Positions 2,622 through 34,657 of a DNA stretch of 37,301 bases are shown here, one piece after another. How positions within the stretch are numbered: the stretch's first letter is position 1; each line of letters begins with the position of its first letter. The position numbers and the translations under genes were made by a program. The notes under the pieces are model-generated. The model did not search any database. It was not told the DNA's origin and worked only from the letters and a program-made list of their open reading frames with translations. Source of the stretch: Eggerthellaceae bacterium (GTDB lineage Bacteria; Actinomycetota; Coriobacteriia; Coriobacteriales; Eggerthellaceae); NCBI GenBank assembly GCA_017440565.1, contig JAFSHA010000131.1, positions 1 through 37,301 of the forward strand. Reading direction: 5' to 3'.

Positions 2622-3212
2622 ATGCTGTTCGTGCTTACCGGTGATGTTCAGACGGGCAAGACCCGCTGGCTTCAGGCGCTGTTGGACGAATTGCGCGAGG
2701 GAGGCGTGGCCGTGAGCGGCGTTTTGGCGCCTGGCGTGTGGCGGGAGCTTCCTGAGGGTGGCTTCGAGAAGCTGGGCATCGACAACGTGCTGCTGCCCCA
2801 AGGCGAGCGCCTGGCGTTTGCACGCCGTCGTGATTTGGCGTTGGCAGAAGGGGCCTTCGTGGCTGAAAGCCAAAGCGCGCAGGCCAATTTGAAGTGGGAG
2901 ATGCCCGAGGGCGCGCTCGAGCGTGTGAACGCCCATTTGGCGAGCTTGGCGCACGTGCAGCCCGATGGGCGCCCGTCGCTTTTGGTCATCGACGAGGTGG
3001 GGCGTTTGGAGCTTTTGCGCAACGGCGGGCTTGTCGAGGCGCTGCGCCTTCTTGATGGGGGTCCTTGCGAGGCATACCGCCATGTTTTGGTCATCGTGCG
3101 CGAGGCCTTGCTCGAGGCGGCGCGGGAACGCTTCGAGCCGGTATGGGGTCCGCTGGTCGTTATCGGAGCCGATGACGCTGGTCGGGCCGCCGTTTTGAAT
3201 GCGTTTGCGTAG
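2622..3212 (+). CDS. THEP1-like P-loop nucleoside triphosphatase
   Basis: This 196-residue protein resembles the NTPase_1/THEP1 family of small P-loop nucleoside-triphosphatases, whose biological role is poorly known. Walker A is GDVQTGKT at residues 7-14, right at the N-terminus. Walker B is LLVIDEVGRLEL near residues 124-135. The end carries a VIGADDAGRAAV segment. The ATG at 2622 was chosen because GAAGGGGG lies just upstream and the family starts a few residues before the P-loop. The frame is open further upstream through the inverted repeat (ATG at 2583), but that would add non-conserved residues. It stands alone between two terminated units. The substrate cannot be deduced. Confidence 0.75.
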   Translation: MLFVLTGDVQTGKTRWLQALLDELREGGVAVSGVLAPGVWRELPEGGFEKLGIDNVLLPQGERLAFARRRDLALAEGAFVAESQSAQANLKWEMPEGALERVNAHLASLAHVQPDGRPSLLVIDEVGRLELLRNGGLVEALRLLDGGPCEAYRHVLVIVREALLEAARERFEPVWGPLVVIGADDAGRAAVLNAFA

Positions 3213-3349
3213 AACCGAGTTTTTCTGCCGTAAAATGCCGCTGGTGCTGGGGGCTCATTTTGCCGGGCGTTTTCCAAGTCGGACTATCCGCTGTCCGTTA
3301 TGCCTTCGCGTTTCCCCGACGCTTGGCCGCACTCGTTTCCCTGTTCTTT

Positions 3350-3355
3350 TATACT
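3350..3355 (+). promoter_or_regulatory. Possible thyX -10 element
   Basis: TATACT lies 32 bases before the thyX start in a T-rich stretch. No convincing -35 is visible at 16-18 bases. The rest of the 3213-3387 gap shows nothing identifiable. Confidence 0.4.
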
Positions 3356-3387
3356 TGCGAAAGTTGATGAACAAGCGAGGAGGTCCC

Positions 3388-4068
3388 ATGAACGTTGAGC
3401 TGCTGTACCATACGCCCGATCCCGAGCGAGCCATCGCCACGGCTGCGCGCTTGTGCTATGCGCCCGTCGGTGCCTCCGAGCTCATGGAAACCATGCCTGT
3501 CGAGCGCATGGCAAGCGTCCTTTCCACCATCATGAAGGGCGGACACTTCTCGACGCTCGAGCATGCCAGCTACACCTTTGCCATTGACGGCGTCTCGCGT
3601 GCGCTCACGCATCAGCTGGTGCGCCATCGTCTTGCCAGCTTCAACCAGCAAAGCCAGCGCTACGTCAAGTTCAAGAACGGTATCGAGGTGGTGAAGCCGC
3701 ATACGATTGCCGAAAACGCCGAGGCTGAGGCCGTGTTCGACGAGGCCATCAAGCAGGCCGAGGAAGCTTACGCGAAGCTGCTTGCCCTGGACATTCCCGC
3801 CGAAGACGCGCGCTACTTGCTCCCGAACGCGGCCGAGACGAAGATCGTCGTGACCATGAACGCTCGTGAGCTGCTCCATTTCTTCGACGTGCGCTGCTGC
3901 AATCGCGCTCAGTGGGAGATTCGCGAGTTGGCTCATAGGATGCTCGAGCTCGTGCGCCCCACCGCGCCCTACGTGTTCGCCGACGCCGGCGCCCCTTGCG
4001 TGCGCACCTCGTGCCCCGAGGGTAAGATGACGTGCGGCAACCCCTTCCCGAAGGTGGTTCGCGACTAG
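3388..4068 (+). CDS. thyX: Flavin-dependent thymidylate synthase ThyX
   Basis: ThyX makes dTMP from dUMP using FAD, NADPH and methylene-tetrahydrofolate. The 226-residue length fits the family. The ThyX signature RHRLASFNQQSQRY (RHRxxSxNxxSxRY) lies near residues 78-91, after the substrate-binding segment GHFSTLEHASYTFAI. A second conserved part, RELLHFFDVRCCNRAQWEIR, lies near residues 161-180. The ATG at 3388 follows a strong GAGGAGG and matches the family N-terminus; the open frame upstream is non-conserved. It is monocistronic with its own terminator. It fits thematically with tmk, the next enzyme in dTTP synthesis, found 8 kb away. Confidence 0.96.
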   Translation: MNVELLYHTPDPERAIATAARLCYAPVGASELMETMPVERMASVLSTIMKGGHFSTLEHASYTFAIDGVSRALTHQLVRHRLASFNQQSQRYVKFKNGIEVVKPHTIAENAEAEAVFDEAIKQAEEAYAKLLALDIPAEDARYLLPNAAETKIVVTMNARELLHFFDVRCCNRAQWEIRELAHRMLELVRPTAPYVFADAGAPCVRTSCPEGKMTCGNPFPKVVRD

Positions 4069-11488: not shown

Positions 11489-12235
11489 ATGACCGAAAAG
11501 CGTGGCATATTCATCACCTTCGAAGGCGGCGATGGCGTGGGCAAGTCCACGCATATCCGCTTCCTTGCGAACACTCTGGAGAACCAGGGCTTTAAGGTGC
11601 TGTGCCTGCGCGAGCCGGGTGGGACCGCCATTGGCGAAAGCCTGCGCTCCATCGTGCTTGATCCTGCGCACGAGGCCATGGCGCCCGAAGCCGAGCTGCT
11701 CATCTACGAAGCCGCACGTGCCCAGATTGTCGCGGAGGTCATTCGGCCGGCGCTTGATCGCGGCGCGGTGGTGCTGTGCGACCGCTTCTTCGATTCGACC
11801 GTGGCTTACCAGGCGTTTGGCCGTGGGCTTGACCGGGCGTTCGTCGATGCCGCCAACGTGTTTGCCACGGGCGGCCTTATGCCCGATCGCACCATTTTGC
11901 TTACGCTTGGCGAGGCGTCGCAAGGCGCCGATGCAGGGCTTGACCGCGCGGCGGGCCGTGCTGATGCCGATCGTCTTGAGCTTGCGGGCCATGATTTCCA
12001 CACGCGTGTGGCAGCGGGCTTTCTTGCGCTTGCCGAGGAGTTTCCCGATCGCGTGCGCACGGTTGATTCCTCGGGCGACCGCTCGCTTACCTCTGCCATG
12101 ATCTTCCATGAGCTTTCCGACCTCTTCCCCTGGATGCGCGACGCGTCTCTGTGCAGCGAAGAGTTCTTCGCCGTGCTTGACGCGCCCTTTGTCGCGCAGG
12201 CTTCATCGACGCATGGGGGAGGTGCACGTGGCTGA
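11489..12235 (+). CDS. tmk: Thymidylate kinase Tmk
   Basis: Tmk phosphorylates dTMP to dTDP. The P-loop FEGGDGVGKST is at residues 11-21, the LREPGGT motif near 42-48, and the DRFFDSTVAYQ segment near 94-104. The LID region (GLDRAAGRADADR) lacks the dense Arg run of some forms. At 248 residues it is about 35 longer than usual, the excess being a C-terminal extension. It begins the tmk-holB-yaaT block also known from B. subtilis. Its stop overlaps the holB start by eight bases. Confidence 0.95.
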   Translation: MTEKRGIFITFEGGDGVGKSTHIRFLANTLENQGFKVLCLREPGGTAIGESLRSIVLDPAHEAMAPEAELLIYEAARAQIVAEVIRPALDRGAVVLCDRFFDSTVAYQAFGRGLDRAFVDAANVFATGGLMPDRTILLTLGEASQGADAGLDRAAGRADADRLELAGHDFHTRVAAGFLALAEEFPDRVRTVDSSGDRSLTSAMIFHELSDLFPWMRDASLCSEEFFAVLDAPFVAQASSTHGGGARG

Positions 12236-18429: not shown

Positions 18430-19392
18430 GTGACTGCTGTTTCTTGCGACATATGCCCGCGGGGGTGCTCGGTTGACCGGGCTTCGGGGCAGCGTGGCGT
18501 GTGCGGGGCGTCTGATGAGTTGGTGGTGGCGCGTGCGGCCCTGCATTTTTGGGAAGAGCCGCCTATAAGCGGTGAGTCGGGCAGTGGGACCGTTTTCTTC
18601 GGCAACTGCCCGCTTCGATGCAATTATTGCCAGAACACGGTGATAGCCCATGGCGATGTGGGCCAGGTGGTGAGTGTCGCCGATGTGGCCCGCATGTGCC
18701 TTGACCTGCAGGAACAGGGTGCGCTTAACATCAACTTCGTCACGCCGACGCACTACACGACCCAGGTACGTGAAGCTACCGTCTTGGCGCGTTCGAAGGG
18801 GCTGCATCTGCCTGTGGTGTGGAACACCGGAGGTTACGAGCGTGCGGATGTGATTCGCGGAAATGCCGGAACGGTGGATGTGTACCTGACCGACTTCAAG
18901 TACGCCGATGCGGCGTTGGGTGAGCGCTACTCTCGCGTTTCCGACTACCCCGATCGGGCTCTCGAGGCGCTTGACGCCATGGTCGAGACGGCAGGTCCGT
19001 TGGAATATGATGAATATCGCGGCCAGGAGCGCCTTGTGCGCGGTGTGGTGGTGCGTCACCTTTTGCTTCCGGGTAATTTGGAAGACTCAAAGCGCGTGGT
19101 GCGCCTGCTGCACGAGCGGTATGGCTCGGCGATTCGCCTGTCGCTCATGAACCAGTACACGCCGGTTCTCGCTACGGCAGCTGCAGCCGGCGACGCGCGT
19201 GCGGCCGCCGAACTGGCGCGTTGCCCTGAGTTGGCAGGGCGCGTGCCCGACTGGCAGTACGAGGAGCTGCTTGACTTCGCAGACGCCCTCGGGGTCGAAG
19301 ACTACTTCTGGCAAGAAGGCGGTGCCTGCGAGGAAAGCTTCATCCCCGCGTTCACTTCCGAAGGGTGGGCCAACGGGGGAGATGGCGTATGA
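18430..19392 (+). CDS. PflX-like radical SAM protein
   Basis: A 320-residue radical SAM enzyme similar to COG1313 (PflX, related to pyruvate formate-lyase activases). The SAM-cluster motif is C60xxxC64xxC67 (FGNCPLRCNYCQN). A second N-terminal Cys set (C6, C9, C13, C25; CDICPRGC...RGVCGA) is characteristic of this subgroup. FVTPTHYTTQV and NTGGYE follow. Family members are thought to install glycyl radicals or related modifications, but no target is adjacent. GTG 18430 was chosen because it lies just past the preceding stop and begins the conserved Cys region; AGGTGG lies close upstream. It overlaps the next gene by ATGA. Confidence 0.85.
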   Translation: MTAVSCDICPRGCSVDRASGQRGVCGASDELVVARAALHFWEEPPISGESGSGTVFFGNCPLRCNYCQNTVIAHGDVGQVVSVADVARMCLDLQEQGALNINFVTPTHYTTQVREATVLARSKGLHLPVVWNTGGYERADVIRGNAGTVDVYLTDFKYADAALGERYSRVSDYPDRALEALDAMVETAGPLEYDEYRGQERLVRGVVVRHLLLPGNLEDSKRVVRLLHERYGSAIRLSLMNQYTPVLATAAAAGDARAAAELARCPELAGRVPDWQYEELLDFADALGVEDYFWQEGGACEESFIPAFTSEGWANGGDGV

Positions 19393-19913
19393 CGCTTGTG
19401 GGCATACTATCCGATACGCACGGGCAGCTGGCTGAAGCGGCGTATGCCTCGCTGGCTGAATGCGATCACATCATCCATGCGGGCGATATCTGCGGCCCGC
19501 ACGTGCTGCGCGAGCTCGAGACGCTTGCGCCCGTGACGGCTGTGCTGGGCAACAACGACTTTGACGAGTACGGAACGCATGTGGGACGTTTCGCGCGCCC
19601 GGTCATCGACGGCGTGCGGTTTCTGGTCGCTCACTACCCGCGCGACGTTGCCATCGGCGTGCATGGTTGCGCGGGGTTGGCGCCGGGGGATCCCATTCCG
19701 CATGTGCGCGTGCACGGCCATACGCACGTGCCTCACCTGACCGTTGGGCCCGACGCGCGCCCTTCGAACCTGCTCATGTGCCCGGGTGCGGTGTTCCGTC
19801 CGCGCGGCGGCTTCCCGCGTTGTCTGGCGAAGCTCGAGGTATCTGAAGGTCGCATTCTGGGCGCTCGCATCGAGGGCCTAGCCGGCGGCGTGCTCATGGA
19901 GCTGCCGAAATAG
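19389..19913 (+). CDS. YfcE/MJ0936-type metallophosphoesterase
   Basis: A 174-residue calcineurin-like phosphoesterase. Metal-binding motifs appear in family order: SDTHG (D8, H10), HAGD, GNND, H in FLVAHYP, and HGHTHVP. Small proteins of this group hydrolyse phosphodiesters in vitro; physiological substrates are mostly unknown. The ATG overlaps the radical SAM stop (ATGA) and GGGGGAG lies seven bases upstream. It is the last gene of the long operon. No hairpin terminator was found after it, only a pyrimidine-rich stretch. Confidence 0.88.
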   Translation: MTLVGILSDTHGQLAEAAYASLAECDHIIHAGDICGPHVLRELETLAPVTAVLGNNDFDEYGTHVGRFARPVIDGVRFLVAHYPRDVAIGVHGCAGLAPGDPIPHVRVHGHTHVPHLTVGPDARPSNLLMCPGAVFRPRGGFPRCLAKLEVSEGRILGARIEGLAGGVLMELPK

Positions 19914-19980
19914 GCCGGGTGACGGATCGGGCAACGGAAACCGCGCGGTGTGTCGGGCGGGTTGGCTGGTGCCTATTTGC

Positions 19981-20032
19981 TTTTCTTTTGCTTCGAACGC
20001 TATCTTTTCTTTTAGTTTGATTCTTTTCTTTT
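19981..20032. repeat. Polypyrimidine tract with three TTTTCTTTT copies
   Basis: TTTTCTTTT occurs at 19981, 20005 and 20024 in a low-GC, pyrimidine-biased stretch within otherwise GC-rich DNA, between the phosphoesterase gene and the SOS-type promoter. No gene is apparent in 19914-20192. Confidence 0.6.
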
Positions 20033-20116
20033 GGCATCCTTTGTGGTTTTTGGTAAGAGACGCACGGCGGCAAAAAAACGAAGAGAGTGTCGAAGCGAAA
20101 CGATTTGGAATGCCGA

Positions 20117-20145
20117 TTGACAGCGGCTGGGTGCTTCCTTATTAT
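20117..20145 (+). promoter_or_regulatory. Sigma-70-type promoter of the radical SAM repair operon
   Basis: Consensus TTGACA (20117-20122), exactly 17 bases, then TATTAT (20140-20145). Transcription should start near 20152, inside the first LexA-like box. Confidence 0.85.
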
Positions 20146-20147
20146 GA

Positions 20148-20177
20148 CAAACGTATGTTCGCGAGAACGAATGTTTG
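20148..20177. promoter_or_regulatory. Two LexA-like SOS boxes
   Basis: Box 1 CAAACGTATGTTCG (20148-20161) and box 2 AGAACGAATGTTTG (20164-20177) each fit the Gram-positive LexA pattern CGAAC-N4-GTTCG with one or two mismatches. They lie side by side just after the -10 and cover the transcription start, the expected place for repression. AAGGAGG (20181-20187) follows directly. Confidence 0.7.
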
Positions 20178-20192
20178 CCTAAGGAGGACGCG

Positions 20193-21620
20193 ATGGATTT
20201 GGCGGAGAAGCTGGGGGTTTTGGCCGATGCCGCCAAGTACGACGTCGCATGCACGTCTTCGGGCATCGACCGCGACGCGCAGCGCGGTTGCCTGGGTTCC
20301 ACAACCTCTGCGGGGATCTGTCATTCGTTTACGGCCGACGGGCGCTGCATTACTCTGCTCAAGGTGCTCATGACCAACGCCTGCGTTTACGACTGCGCCT
20401 ATTGCGTGAACCGCGTGAGCAACGAGGGCGTGCGCCGCGTGGCGTTCAAACCGCGTGAACTGGCCGACCTCACCATTGGGTTCTATCGGCGCAACTACAT
20501 CGAGGGCCTGTTTCTCAGCTCGGGCGTGGTGCGAAATCCCGATTTCACCACCGAGCTCATGATCCAAACGCTTGAGATCCTGCGCTTCGAACATGGCTTC
20601 CGGGGCTACATTCACGCCAAGGCGGTGCCCGGCACCTCGCCCGAGCTCATCGACAGGCTGGGGCATCTGGCCGATCGCATGAGCGTCAACCTCGAGCTTC
20701 CCTCGCAGCAAAGCCTGGCCCTGCTTGCCCCCGACAAAAGCAGGCAGGATATCTTGGCGCCCATGCGCCGCATACGGGAAAACATCGCCGAGGATCGCGA
20801 GGTGCGTGCCATGATGCGCCGCCAAACCGCCTACTTGGCGCAAACGCGTCCCAAGCGGAAGACGCGTGCGTATGCGCCCGCCGGGCAGAGCACGCAGATG
20901 ATCGTCGGGGCCACGCCTGAATCCGACTTCCAAATTCTCAAGCTTTCGGGTGCGCTGTACCAGCATATGGGCCTCAAGCGCGTGTTCTTCAGCGCCTACC
21001 TGCCCGTGAACGATGACGTGCGCCTGCCGTCGAGCGACGCCGTGCAGCTTGATCGCGAGCACCGCCTGTACCAGGCTGACTGGCTTTTGCGCTTCTACGA
21101 CTTCAACGTCGACGAAATCATCGATGCCGACCATCCGTTTCTCGACCCGTACGTCGACCCGAAGGCCAATTGGGCGCTCAACCATCTGGACCTGTTTCCC
21201 GTCGAGGTGAACACCGCGCCGTACGAGATGCTTCTGCGTGTGCCGGGCATCGGGGTGAAGGGCGCGAAGCTCATCATGAAGGCGCGACGCGAGCGTGCGC
21301 TTGGGGAAGAGGAGCTGCGCCGCTTGGGAGTGGCGTACAAGCGGGCCCGCTATTTCGTCACCTGCAACGGCCGGTACGGCGGCGTGGGCGTCGCCTTCGA
21401 GCGTGATGCGTTGCGCGCGAGGTTGATGGCGCCCATCGAAGGCGGGCGTCATGGGCGACGCTCTGCCCGTACGTGCGAGGGGCAGCTCTCGCTGTTTGAG
21501 GAAGTCGAAACGCCGGAGAAGGCGCGGGCGCGTGGCCAGGCGCGTCGCCTGGATGCCGCGCCGGCCGCGCTTGCCGAGCCCGCGGGTCCCGCCACCCCCG
21601 AAAGGCTGTTCGCATGTTAG
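20193..21620 (+). CDS. Putative DNA repair/modification radical SAM protein (TIGR03916-like)
   Basis: A 475-residue protein matching the radical SAM family usually annotated as putative DNA modification/repair and linked to an uracil-DNA-glycosylase-type partner. The SAM cluster motif is C64xxxC68xxC71. YIHAKAVPG and MSVNLELPS follow. A helix-hairpin-helix motif (LLRVPGIGVKGAKLI, about 346-360) suggests DNA binding. Near the C-terminus QLSLF (431-435) is the consensus beta-clamp-binding pentapeptide, set in a disordered tail. The start is fixed by AAGGAGG. Control by two LexA-like boxes and the overlap with the DUF4130 partner support a damage-response role. The actual lesion is unknown. Confidence 0.88.
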   Translation: MDLAEKLGVLADAAKYDVACTSSGIDRDAQRGCLGSTTSAGICHSFTADGRCITLLKVLMTNACVYDCAYCVNRVSNEGVRRVAFKPRELADLTIGFYRRNYIEGLFLSSGVVRNPDFTTELMIQTLEILRFEHGFRGYIHAKAVPGTSPELIDRLGHLADRMSVNLELPSQQSLALLAPDKSRQDILAPMRRIRENIAEDREVRAMMRRQTAYLAQTRPKRKTRAYAPAGQSTQMIVGATPESDFQILKLSGALYQHMGLKRVFFSAYLPVNDDVRLPSSDAVQLDREHRLYQADWLLRFYDFNVDEIIDADHPFLDPYVDPKANWALNHLDLFPVEVNTAPYEMLLRVPGIGVKGAKLIMKARRERALGEEELRRLGVAYKRARYFVTCNGRYGGVGVAFERDALRARLMAPIEGGRHGRRSARTCEGQLSLFEEVETPEKARARGQARRLDAAPAALAEPAGPATPERLFAC

Positions 21621-22447
21621 CGCGGGGAGAGCAAGCGGAGCTGTTTTCGGAGGTTGCGTATGCCTACGACGGCAGCCTCGAGGGGCTGCTCTCGGCTATC
21701 TTCGCCGCATACGAGCGGCGTGAGAACCCTACCGATGTCGAGCCCAGGTTCCGCTTGCAGCCGAGGCTCGACCAGCGCGTTTCCCTCATTGACGTGAACC
21801 TCGAGCACGCCGAACGCGTGCGTGCGGGGTTGGCGGGCTCGTGCGGGCCCGCTGCCTACAGCGCCATGAAGGCGGCGGCGCTTTGCTCGGAGGCGGGGTC
21901 TGGCACGGCGGCTTACCGGTTCGTCCGCTACGCCTACGACGCGGCTCCAAGCAGGCGCAGGGCTTTTTCCGATGTGGCGCACCCCGACGTGGCGCCGCTG
22001 CGGCGCATTTGGAAGCGCGTCGGCACCGAGCGCGAGCGCATGCTGCAGTTCGTTCGCTTCGAAGAGCTGGAAGGGGGTTTGTGGTTTGCGCGCTGCAACC
22101 CGCAGGACAGCGTGATTCCGCTGGTCATGGACCATTTCGCCAGCCGCTTCAACACGCAGGCGTTTGTTATCTACGACGAGACTCACGGAGTTGCCGGCGT
22201 GTACGAAGGCCGCGACTGGTACTTGGTTAACGTAGCGGATGGGGGTTCCCTCAACATTCCGCCCGCCACGGCGCGCGAAGCGCAGATGCGTGCGGCTTGG
22301 AAGGCCTTTTATCGCAGCGTATCGGTAGAGGCTCGCTACAACCCAGAGCTCCGCCGCCATTTCATGCCCAAGCGCCTGTGGCGCAACATCACCGAGATGC
22401 AGGAGGACCTGCCGGGTCTTTCGCGTAAGGGTTCGCCTTGCGCTTGA
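21614..22447 (+). CDS. DUF4130/TIGR03915-like putative DNA metabolism protein
   Basis: A 277-residue partner of the preceding radical SAM protein; the two families usually occur together. Recognised from the AYDGSLEGLLSAIF start, the RFVRYAYDAAP segment and the C-terminal half with DVAPLRRIWKRVGTERERMLQFVRFEEL and the end FMPKRLWRNITEM. In some organisms the C-terminal part is fused to a uracil-DNA-glycosylase-like domain; no such fusion is seen here. The ATG overlaps the upstream stop by seven bases, with coupled translation. QAELF at residues 7-11 is a weak version of a clamp-binding motif. Function is not experimentally established as far as I know. Confidence 0.85.
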   Translation: MLARGEQAELFSEVAYAYDGSLEGLLSAIFAAYERRENPTDVEPRFRLQPRLDQRVSLIDVNLEHAERVRAGLAGSCGPAAYSAMKAAALCSEAGSGTAAYRFVRYAYDAAPSRRRAFSDVAHPDVAPLRRIWKRVGTERERMLQFVRFEELEGGLWFARCNPQDSVIPLVMDHFASRFNTQAFVIYDETHGVAGVYEGRDWYLVNVADGGSLNIPPATAREAQMRAAWKAFYRSVSVEARYNPELRRHFMPKRLWRNITEMQEDLPGLSRKGSPCA

Positions 22448-22567
22448 CGTTGCGGGGCGGGTTGATGCTCGTCAAGCCTTTCGGGGCTGTGGGGGAGCGG
22501 CGTTCTTTGACGATCTGATTGCAGCTGATGCGAAAGAGGCGGGCTCATACGGGCGGGGGGCTGCCCG

Positions 22568-22773
22568 AAAAGCAACGAAGCCCGCGGGAGGGGGATTCCG
22601 CGGGCTTCGTTTGTGATGCCGGCCAGACGAGGAGAGCCGCACCACCCAGTAAAGCAAAGAGAGGAGGAGTTGCATTTGACGAACGCGGACTGGAGTGGAG
22701 TTCGGCTGGCTTTCCGTGAGCGATTCGGCAAGCCTTCCTTCGTCAGAATTCAGATCCCGTCCGTCTCTTGACG
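22568..22773 (-). ncRNA. Candidate small RNA with own promoter and terminator
   Basis: A 206-base transcript is predicted from a good minus-strand promoter to a 14-bp stem terminator ending in TTTT (22571-22568). Within it lie a hairpin (GGCTT/AAGCC with inner CCG/CGG, 22708-22734) and a longer-range pairing, GCCAG to CTGGC with CCAC-CCAGT to ACTGG-GTGG, enclosing a pyrimidine-rich loop. A Leu/Val-rich 67-codon frame (22675 leftward) has no ribosome site and runs through the terminator stem. No minus-strand gene follows, so it is not an attenuator of an obvious operon. It matches no RNA family I recognise. Confidence 0.5.
22574..22611. terminator. Strong, possibly bidirectional terminator
   Basis: Perfect 14-bp stem AACGAAGCCCGCGG (22574-22587) / CCGCGGGCTTCGTT (22598-22611), 10-base loop. 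The T-run is better on the minus strand (TTTT at 22571-22568). On the plus strand it could also end the repair operon. Confidence 0.85.
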
Positions 22774-22779
22774 ATGATT

Positions 22780-22808
22780 ACTATAAGGTAACCATGGTTA
22801 ACTTTCAA
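22780..22808 (-). promoter_or_regulatory. Minus-strand promoter with palindromic spacer
   Basis: On the minus strand TTGAAA (22808-22803), exactly 17 bases, TATAGT (22785-22780). The spacer contains the 12-bp palindrome TAACCATGGTTA, a possible operator. It drives the candidate small RNA. The remaining gap up to 22879 shows nothing else. Confidence 0.65.
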
Positions 22809-22879
22809 GAGGTTTTTTGAAAAAGTATAATTCGGTTTACTTTTGCCGTTCGCCGCCGGCGAGCGGTTTAGGAGCCTGT

Positions 22880-23692
22880 TTAGGACAGTGCGCGCTCTTC
22901 TTCGAGACCGTCGTCGGCAATGGGGATGAGCGAAGCCGCCAGCTTGTCCTCGCCGTGCGTGGCCAGGTAGCGGTAGCCGAAGATGCTGAACACGAGCGCG
23001 CCGACGGCGTTGACGAACATGTCTTGCATGGTGTCGTACAGGCCGATGTCCAGGTAACCGCCCAGACCGTAGTCGATGCCGTTGATGGTCGAGGCGGTAA
23101 TGTCGTTAAGGAAAAGCGGGCGCGTGCCATCGCCGCCGAGCATGACGGAGGCGAAGCTGTTCACCACCACGTCCTTCTGCATGTCCTGCCCAAAGAAGTA
23201 GTCGACGGAAAACTCGAAGAACTCCCATACGGTGCCCACCGTCATGGCAAAGCAGATGGCCACGAAGGTGCAGTAGGCGGGGCTGAGGTCGAACTTGACC
23301 GAGGGCGTGCGGTTGAGGATGTCGACCAGCGCGAAGCCAACGGCCGCCGCCAAAAAGCCGCAGAGCGTGTGCAGCATGGTGTCCCACCAGGGAATGGCCT
23401 GGTAATAGCCTCCGATCTCACCCAGGATCTCCGCGGCGAACGCGAACAACAGCACGATGACCTCGAGCGTCGAGGGGATTTCCATCTTGAATTTCCGCTC
23501 GAGCAGGCTGGGCACGATAAACAGGAACAGCACCACCAGGCACAGCATGAACTGCTCCCAGCGCCCCGCCCATGCGCAGCGGATGGCCACCAGCACCACG
23601 ATGGTTCGCAGCACGACGGCAAGCTTCCAAACGCCGGGGTTTTCCTTGATTCGGTCGTTAAGCGATTTGTGAAAGTCCCTGAGTTTGCCCAT
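22880..23692 (-). CDS. YjdF/DUF2238-like integral membrane protein
   Basis: A 270-residue membrane protein. Six or so hydrophobic segments are visible (about 25-42, 48-66, 78-94, 108-125, 140-160, 218-245). Polar motifs in or near them are typical of DUF2238: WWDTMLHTLCGF (about 102-113), VWEFFEFSVDYFFG and LYDTMQDMFVNAVGA. The family (E. coli YjdF) has no proven function. GGAG lies before the ATG, and TATAAT at 23730-23725 provides a -10. The gene is convergent with the repair operon. Confidence 0.75.
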   Translation of the reverse strand: MGKLRDFHKSLNDRIKENPGVWKLAVVLRTIVVLVAIRCAWAGRWEQFMLCLVVLFLFIVPSLLERKFKMEIPSTLEVIVLLFAFAAEILGEIGGYYQAIPWWDTMLHTLCGFLAAAVGFALVDILNRTPSVKFDLSPAYCTFVAICFAMTVGTVWEFFEFSVDYFFGQDMQKDVVVNSFASVMLGGDGTRPLFLNDITASTINGIDYGLGGYLDIGLYDTMQDMFVNAVGALVFSIFGYRYLATHGEDKLAASLIPIADDGLEEERALS

Positions 23693-26287: not shown

Positions 26288-26899
26288 ATGGAACGCAACG
26301 TATCTTCCAGGCCTTCGGGCTTTTGGGGGCTTTTCGCCACTTTCGCCGTTGCCGTCTGCACGCTGTCGGGTGTGCTTGCCGGGTGCGCGGCGGATGATTA
26401 CGCGAGTGTCTTCGCGACGTCGGGCGACGGAGCTCAGGCGGGCGTCCCCGACGGCTTCGAAGAGGCCGAGGTGGTGCGCGTGGTCGACGGCGACACGCTG
26501 CAGGTCTACCTCAACGGCGAGAAGCAGAAGGTGCGCCTCATTGGCATCAACTGCCCCGAAAGCGTGGCCACCGACGAAAGCCGCAACACCGCCGAGGGCC
26601 GCGACGCATCCGGGTTCACGCACGAGCTGCTTTCCGAGGGCGATGTCGTGTGGTTGCAAAGCGACGTGAACGACACCGACCAGTACGACCGCCTTCTGCG
26701 TTACGTGTGGATCGAGGCGCCGGCCAACCCCTATAACGAGGACGAGGTGGCCGCCAAGATGCTCAATGCCATTCTGGTGGCAGAGGGCTTCGCCGAGGCG
26801 CGCGTCTACGGCGCCGACGACCTGTACGCCGACGTCCTTGATGACCTCGAGCGCGAAGCCGTTGCCAACGAGCGCGGCGTGAGCTATATGTGGGCGTAG
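26288..26899 (+). CDS. Lipoprotein staphylococcal-nuclease-like protein
   Basis: A 203-residue secreted, lipid-anchored SNase-fold protein. A signal peptide (1-32) ends in lipobox LAGC with Cys33. The nuclease domain shows VVRVVDGDTLQVYL (about 62-75), VRLIGINCPES (about 82-92) and YDRLLRYVWIE (about 137-147). These supply the calcium-binding Asp and catalytic Arg/Glu positions of thermonucleases. The C-terminal helix region is shorter than in S. aureus nuclease. AGGGGA lies upstream of the ATG. It probably degrades or recycles extracellular DNA, though activity is inferred from motifs only. Confidence 0.87.
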   Translation: MERNVSSRPSGFWGLFATFAVAVCTLSGVLAGCAADDYASVFATSGDGAQAGVPDGFEEAEVVRVVDGDTLQVYLNGEKQKVRLIGINCPESVATDESRNTAEGRDASGFTHELLSEGDVVWLQSDVNDTDQYDRLLRYVWIEAPANPYNEDEVAAKMLNAILVAEGFAEARVYGADDLYADVLDDLEREAVANERGVSYMWA

Positions 26900-34063: not shown

Positions 34064-34657
34064 ATGAAGACGGTTGTCATCGCGACGAACAACGCGCACA
34101 AGGTTGCCGAGATTCGCACGGCGCTAAACTTCGAAGGCTGGGAGTTCAAGACGCTGCGCGACTTGGGCATCGAGTCGAATCCCGAGGAGGACGCGGATTC
34201 TTTTCTGGGGAATGCCTTCATCAAGGCGCGTGCCGCGCATGAGGCAAGCGGCGGCTTGGCTGCATTGGCGGATGATTCGGGTCTTGAGGTTGATGCGTTG
34301 GGCGGGGCGCCGGGCGTGTACTCCTCGCGTTACGCGGGCGAGGACGGCAACGATGAGGCCAACAACGCGAAGCTGCTTGTGGAAATGGCTGACGTGCCCG
34401 AGGCTCGGCGCACGGCGCGTTTTGTGAGCGTGATTGCATTCGTTGACGAGGACGGCACCGAGACGTTTGCCCGCGGCACCATCGAGGGTCGCGTCGGGTA
34501 TGAGGAGCGGGGGAGCGAGGGTTTCGGTTACGACCCGCTGTTCCTTCCCGATGAGTACGAGGGCAAGCTTACCTTGGCCGAGGTGAGCCAAGATGCCAAG
34601 AACGCCATCTCGCATCGCGGAAACGCCCTGCGTGCCCTGAAGGCGCTTCTGGGGTAG
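34064..34657 (+). CDS. rdgB: RdgB/Ham1 non-canonical purine NTP pyrophosphatase
   Basis: A 197-residue house-cleaning enzyme hydrolysing dITP and XTP to monophosphates. The substrate-binding start TNNAHKVAEI (about 8-17), DSFLGNAFIKA, ADDSGLEVDALGGAPGVYSSRYAG, GFGYDPLF and SHRGNAL are all present. AAGGAGG lies before the ATG. murI-rdgB pairing is common in bacteria. Confidence 0.97.
   Translation: MKTVVIATNNAHKVAEIRTALNFEGWEFKTLRDLGIESNPEEDADSFLGNAFIKARAAHEASGGLAALADDSGLEVDALGGAPGVYSSRYAGEDGNDEANNAKLLVEMADVPEARRTARFVSVIAFVDEDGTETFARGTIEGRVGYEERGSEGFGYDPLFLPDEYEGKLTLAEVSQDAKNAISHRGNALRALKALLG

Follow-up and report, generated by a model that had tools for sequence, protein, structure and literature searches.

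Predicted LexA (SOS) control of a radical SAM/DUF4130 operon in the Eggerthellaceae

The window, which is the whole stretch of 37,301 nucleotides of Eggerthellaceae DNA analysed here, carries genes for a radical SAM/helix-hairpin-helix (HhH) protein and its DUF4130 partner behind a promoter with two adjacent palindromes. The question raised by this locus is whether the palindromes are binding sites for LexA and whether the operon belongs to the SOS response. The features concerned are as follows.

20117-20122, forward strand: -35 element TTGACA, read directly
20140-20145, forward strand: -10 element TATTAT, with a 17-bp spacer to the -35 element, read directly
20148-20161, forward strand: predicted LexA box 1, CAAACGTATGTTCG, 17.7 bits with the lexA-promoter matrix
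20164-20177, forward strand: predicted LexA box 2, AGAACGAATGTTTG, 15.9 bits with the lexA-promoter matrix
20181-20187, forward strand: Shine-Dalgarno sequence AAGGAGG, read directly
20193-21620, forward strand: radical SAM/HhH protein, TIGR03916, 475 aa, 598 bits
21614-22447, forward strand: DUF4130 partner, TIGR03915, 277 aa, 204 bits
22576-22609, forward strand: inverted repeat CGAAGCCCGCGG / CCGCGGGCTTCG, read directly, probable terminator by inferred role

Direct reading confirmed the arrangement given in the preliminary description, that is, TTGACA and TATTAT separated by 17 bp and followed by two adjacent boxes resembling CGAAC-N4-GTTCG. Each box is an imperfect palindrome of 14 bp, and the two are 16 bp apart from start to start, leaving a gap of 2 bp. 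With the transcription start set by inference at ~7 nt past the -10 element, on which the box positions relative to the start depend, box 1 would lie over the predicted start, right after the -10 element, and box 2 would extend from about +13 to +26. Box 1 is situated where the promoter can be blocked, in line with the placement of sites in LexA regulons. The radical SAM gene starts with the ATG at 20193 and overlaps the DUF4130 gene at 21614-21620, the start of the latter lying within the end of the former, and the two-gene operon probably ends at the inverted repeat, the T-run of which is short. The upstream neighbour (19365-19913), a YfcE family phosphodiesterase gene in the same direction, ends ~280 bp before the ATG.

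The proposed identity of the two products was borne out by the family models. The radical SAM protein matched TIGR03916 with 598 bits (cut-off, 343.5), and its partner matched TIGR03915 with 203.8 bits (cut-off, 112.25) and PF13566 with 141.7 bits (cut-off, 27). The Radical_SAM domain was also over the Pfam cut-off, and its CX3CX2C motif, consisting of C64, C68, and C71, was conserved without exception in the 22 sequences compared, which came from several phyla. The C-terminal HHH_3 match (E 4e-4) was under the Pfam cut-off, with a conserved VPGIG at 350-354. A DUF4130 orthologue was found directly downstream of the radical SAM gene in 32 of 34 related loci, and a DUF4130 match was absent in the remaining two (L184 and L199).

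The LexA matrix was constructed from 84 sites of 30 Eggerthellaceae lexA promoters, with the radical SAM locus not included. These promoters had two or three boxes each, with a spacing of 28 or 29 bp in nearly all cases; the strict 28/29-bp spacing of the three-box promoters, which make up most of the loci L017-L046, differs from the 16-bp spacing of the boxes in front of the radical SAM operon. Scoring of the two boxes resulted in 17.7 and 15.9 bits, indicating the same motif as that of the lexA and recA promoters, and the boxes ranked first and second in the 37-kb window, where the third-ranked site reached 7.3 bits. As estimated from 1 Mb of simulated sequence with matched dinucleotide make-up, the chance per position of scores as good was ~1e-6 for box 1 and ~5e-6 for box 2, and no pair of equally good sites was present in that sequence. 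Simple pattern counts over the genome gave fewer matches to GAAC-N4-GTTC with one mismatch than the control, and those to the stricter pattern CRWAC-N4-GTTYK were below the reversed control. Because both were below control, the counts carry no weight, and the case consists of the matrix scores, the position, and the conservation of the boxes.

The draft genome from which the window comes (2.4 Mb in 172 contigs) encodes recA and lexA, with lexA represented by its C-terminal part only, at the start of a contig. Since that contig begins inside the gene and lacks its promoter, the motif was taken from the recA, uvrA, and ruvC genes of the same genome and from relatives; uvrA and ruvC were named by reading their protein sequences. 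Two boxes, scoring 13.8 and 12.2 bits, were found in the recA promoter, the stronger of them lying between the -35 and -10 elements, the ruvC promoter had two boxes of 13.4 and 16.9 bits, and the uvrA start was preceded by CGAACAGAAGTTCT with 17.0 bits. The lexA promoter of a congener had three boxes of 19.4, 19.2, and 17.4 bits. Thus, the reservation that a different LexA consensus might apply in this organism did not hold, as the lexA promoters of the family and of the congener and the genome's own recA, uvrA, and ruvC all have the same motif, and the predicted boxes of the radical SAM operon are as strong as those of these core SOS genes.

Conservation was examined in the family, in which TIGR03916 was present in 96 of 138 genomes and LexA in 58 of 60, and the radical SAM orthologues of Adlercreutzia, Enterorhabdus, and Anaerotardibacter were 69-77% identical to the protein in the window. 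In a survey of the 300-bp regions upstream of 90 TIGR03916 genes, including that in the window, all 90 promoters had a site scoring 10 bits or more, compared with 2.7% of shuffled promoters. Two or more such sites were found in 77 (0.09% of shuffled promoters), and the exact 16-bp pair was found in 46 (0.04%). As a further control, 5 of 300 other 300-bp stretches of the same lexA loci contained such a site, this control being confined to the lexA-locus set, as sets containing promoters of reverse-strand loci were discarded. The promoters of the family are otherwise only ~27% identical in ungapped comparison, and the retention of the boxes in such diverged promoters indicates that they are held by selection. 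The survey also bears on the possibility that the inverted repeats represent an RNA leader structure instead of repressor sites, with which the presence of imperfect palindromes within the predicted leader would be consistent. The repeats are short, no Rfam match was obtained in 19700-22900, and the sites of relatives also fall within the spacer between the -35 and -10 elements, outside the transcript. Considering in addition that other lineages have other LexA motifs in place of these repeats, as described below, we regard an RNA leader structure as extremely unlikely.

Outside the family, the orthologues were accompanied by the LexA motif of their own lineage. Those of Clostridia and of one Negativicutes genome mostly had the Gram-positive box, in most cases at about -30 to -75, with boxes at -116 and -147 in one Lachnospiraceae MAG. 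Eleven Gilliamella genomes had a perfect CTGT-N8-ACAG, the gamma-proteobacterial box, around -45, and one Rhodospirillales genome had a perfect GTTC-N7-GTTC, the alpha-proteobacterial box. The lexA promoter was of the same motif type as that of the orthologue in the Gilliamella, Rhodospirillales, and Negativicutes genomes concerned. At the level of sequence, nothing speaks more strongly against a motif that arose by chance or is unrelated to LexA than this replacement by the local LexA motif. In keeping with this, no box was found at the orthologues of one Elusimicrobia and one Sulfuricurvum genome, in neither of which lexA was recognisable. Among the exceptions, one Christensenellaceae genome with a weak lexA match had no box at its orthologue, and no convincing box match was found at that of a Geobacter genome with lexA. 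Two Clostridia with a clear lexA (L205 and L206) had weak sites of 9.0 and 8.0 bits upstream of lexA, and lexA was not found in the Lachnospiraceae MAG with boxes at its orthologue, perhaps owing to incompleteness. The Gilliamella pair (L187-L198, of which L188 and L197 are other taxa) is ~55% identical to the radical SAM/DUF4130 pair in the window, and a match over the cut-off was obtained in 1 of 140 sampled genomes of the class, the one being Gilliamella itself. This looks like transfer followed by re-wiring to the SOS box of the E. coli type.

The replacement of the motif is also informative about whether the boxes could instead be bound by another regulator that recognises a similar palindrome, leaving the operon outside the SOS response. 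A motif match by itself does not tell which protein binds, and several boxes of the family have a recurrent A at position 10 that departs from the lexA consensus, as in CGAACAGATATTCG. The matrix was, however, built from the lexA promoters themselves, and the unrelated LexA motifs of their own lineages at the Gilliamella and Rhodospirillales promoters would require the regulator to switch in step with LexA, which is not expected of any other single regulator. Such a regulator is, hence, very unlikely. Taken together, the reading of the twin sites as LexA boxes, as originally proposed, was supported by the matrix scores, by their presence in all 90 family promoters, and by the motif replacement in two proteobacterial lineages, and we are highly confident in the prediction that the radical SAM/DUF4130 operon is under LexA (SOS) control; its induction by DNA damage is very probable.

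In the undamaged cell, the twin boxes, which would cover the transcription start and the first part of the leader, would be occupied by one or two LexA dimers that stand in the way of RNA polymerase. Upon DNA damage, activated RecA would induce the self-cleavage of LexA and free the boxes, allowing joint production of the radical SAM/HhH protein and DUF4130. Their most probable target is DNA that has been damaged or miscopied. The radical SAM enzyme would supply a 5'-deoxyadenosyl radical for the repair or modification of bases, and the HhH motif and DUF4130 would make contacts with DNA or a partner. Judging from this context, a role in DNA repair is likely. A LexA-repressed operon could also serve another function, such as the modification of DNA or nucleotides against phage, or mutagenesis, and DUF4130 was indeed called a predicted mutagenesis-related enzyme by Aravind and colleagues, who linked it to radical SAM proteins and uracil-DNA glycosylases (UDGs) (PMC3765255). 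The predicted sharing of a LexA motif with recA, uvrA, and ruvC favours repair, as does the fused DUF4130-UDG protein of a Rhodospirillales genome (L200), and we consider a function other than repair rather unlikely.

With respect to known systems, COG4277 is presumably the same radical SAM/HhH family as the TIGR03916 protein in the window. The operon of COG1573 and COG4277, encoding a UDG and its partner, belongs to SOS networks in Bacteroidetes and was reported in Verrucomicrobia and Alphaproteobacteria (PMC8565304); SOS control is likewise reported or predicted there, whereas the partner has a UDG domain and that in the window consists of DUF4130 alone. The CAC3343-CAC3344 operon of Clostridium acetobutylicum was predicted in the LexA regulon (PMC3828012); this concerns one predicted promoter from a different phylum, in contrast to the two adjacent boxes of the window, which occur family-wide and have their motif replaced in proteobacteria. 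The spore photoproduct lyase SplB, SOS-regulated in several species (PMC8565304), is similar to the protein in the window in being a radical SAM protein tied to DNA repair, but it is of a different family, and the radical SAM protein in the window has lipoyl synthase, HydE, and biotin synthase as its best listed structural matches and carries three invariant cysteines in addition to its CX3CX2C motif. Predictions or reports of LexA control of the radical SAM/DUF4130 family, hence, exist for other phyla, and the present evidence is not the first of its kind. Within the open-access literature, our searches yielded no study of the LexA regulon in Eggerthella and related bacteria. The new element, strongly supported by sequence comparison, is an unusually well supported case in Eggerthellaceae, which would place a widespread pair among the damage-induced genes of a family of gut anaerobes. 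The link with LexA outlasts changes of the LexA recognition sequence, and the search for the substrate gains both a reason and a condition, namely DNA damage in the absence of oxygen.

The three additional cysteines, C20, C43, and C52, were invariant in the same 22 sequences as the CX3CX2C motif. The model of the radical SAM protein (mean pLDDT, 72; under 50 for residues 15-40) had lipoyl synthase as the best of its listed structural matches (Z 16.7, 3.5 Å over 229 residues), followed by HydE and biotin synthase. SplB was absent among the listed fold matches, which excludes nothing, and the sequence search against solved structures gave only a weak radical SAM match, 4wcx (E 3e-4). Lipoyl synthase and biotin synthase contain a second iron-sulphur cluster, and by analogy an auxiliary metal site formed by C20, C43, and C52 is a testable idea.

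For the DUF4130 model (pLDDT, 85), the best Foldseek match was PAP phosphatase (E 2e-4), followed by RecJ, and the list was filled almost throughout by DHH proteins (PAP phosphatase, RecJ, Cdc45, and pyrophosphatase), with Z of 8.9 to 8.0 and an rmsd of ~5 Å over 184-197 residues. An hhalign comparison with local DHH families gave a probability under 1% and, thus, no profile support, nothing credible was obtained by the sequence search against solved structures, and the DHH catalytic motif was found neither in the DUF4130 protein of the window nor among the conserved columns of the family. D19, an Asp after the first strand, was nearly invariant. Whether DUF4130 has a DHH/RecJ/Cdc45-like fold is, judging from these models, about an even bet. 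We offer as a tentative and rather doubtful proposal that DUF4130 may be a compact, catalytically degenerate DHH/Cdc45-like protein working with a radical SAM/HhH enzyme that bears an auxiliary metal site (C20, C43, and C52). In this proposal, the two would form a radical-based DNA-repair machine that is induced by the SOS response, differs from photolyase and spore photoproduct lyase, and has been repeatedly re-wired to the LexA motif of the host.

Several other observations were made in the same genome. The window also contains thyX (3199-4068) and genes for dTMP kinase (11489-12235) and XTP/dITP pyrophosphatase (34064-34657), all without LexA boxes, and a thermonuclease-like ORF (26288-26899) that matched NucI with 81 bits, below the cut-off. 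The strongest LexA-like site seen in this genome was AGAACATATGTTCT, with 21.3 bits (contig C148:13276-13289; L078 1077); a solute-binding-protein-like ORF lies ~500 bp downstream of it, and no SOS gene was recognised there. Three moderate LexA-like sites of 10.7, 11.6, and 14.5 bits, the first two of which are 16 bp apart, lie close to the end of a contig, where no downstream gene was recognised (G000 contig C47:19482-19563; L152 1501-1581); they may belong to a further SOS promoter truncated in the assembly. Furthermore, a gene that appears from its sequence to encode a Y-family polymerase was observed near a site of 19.2 bits on contig C120.
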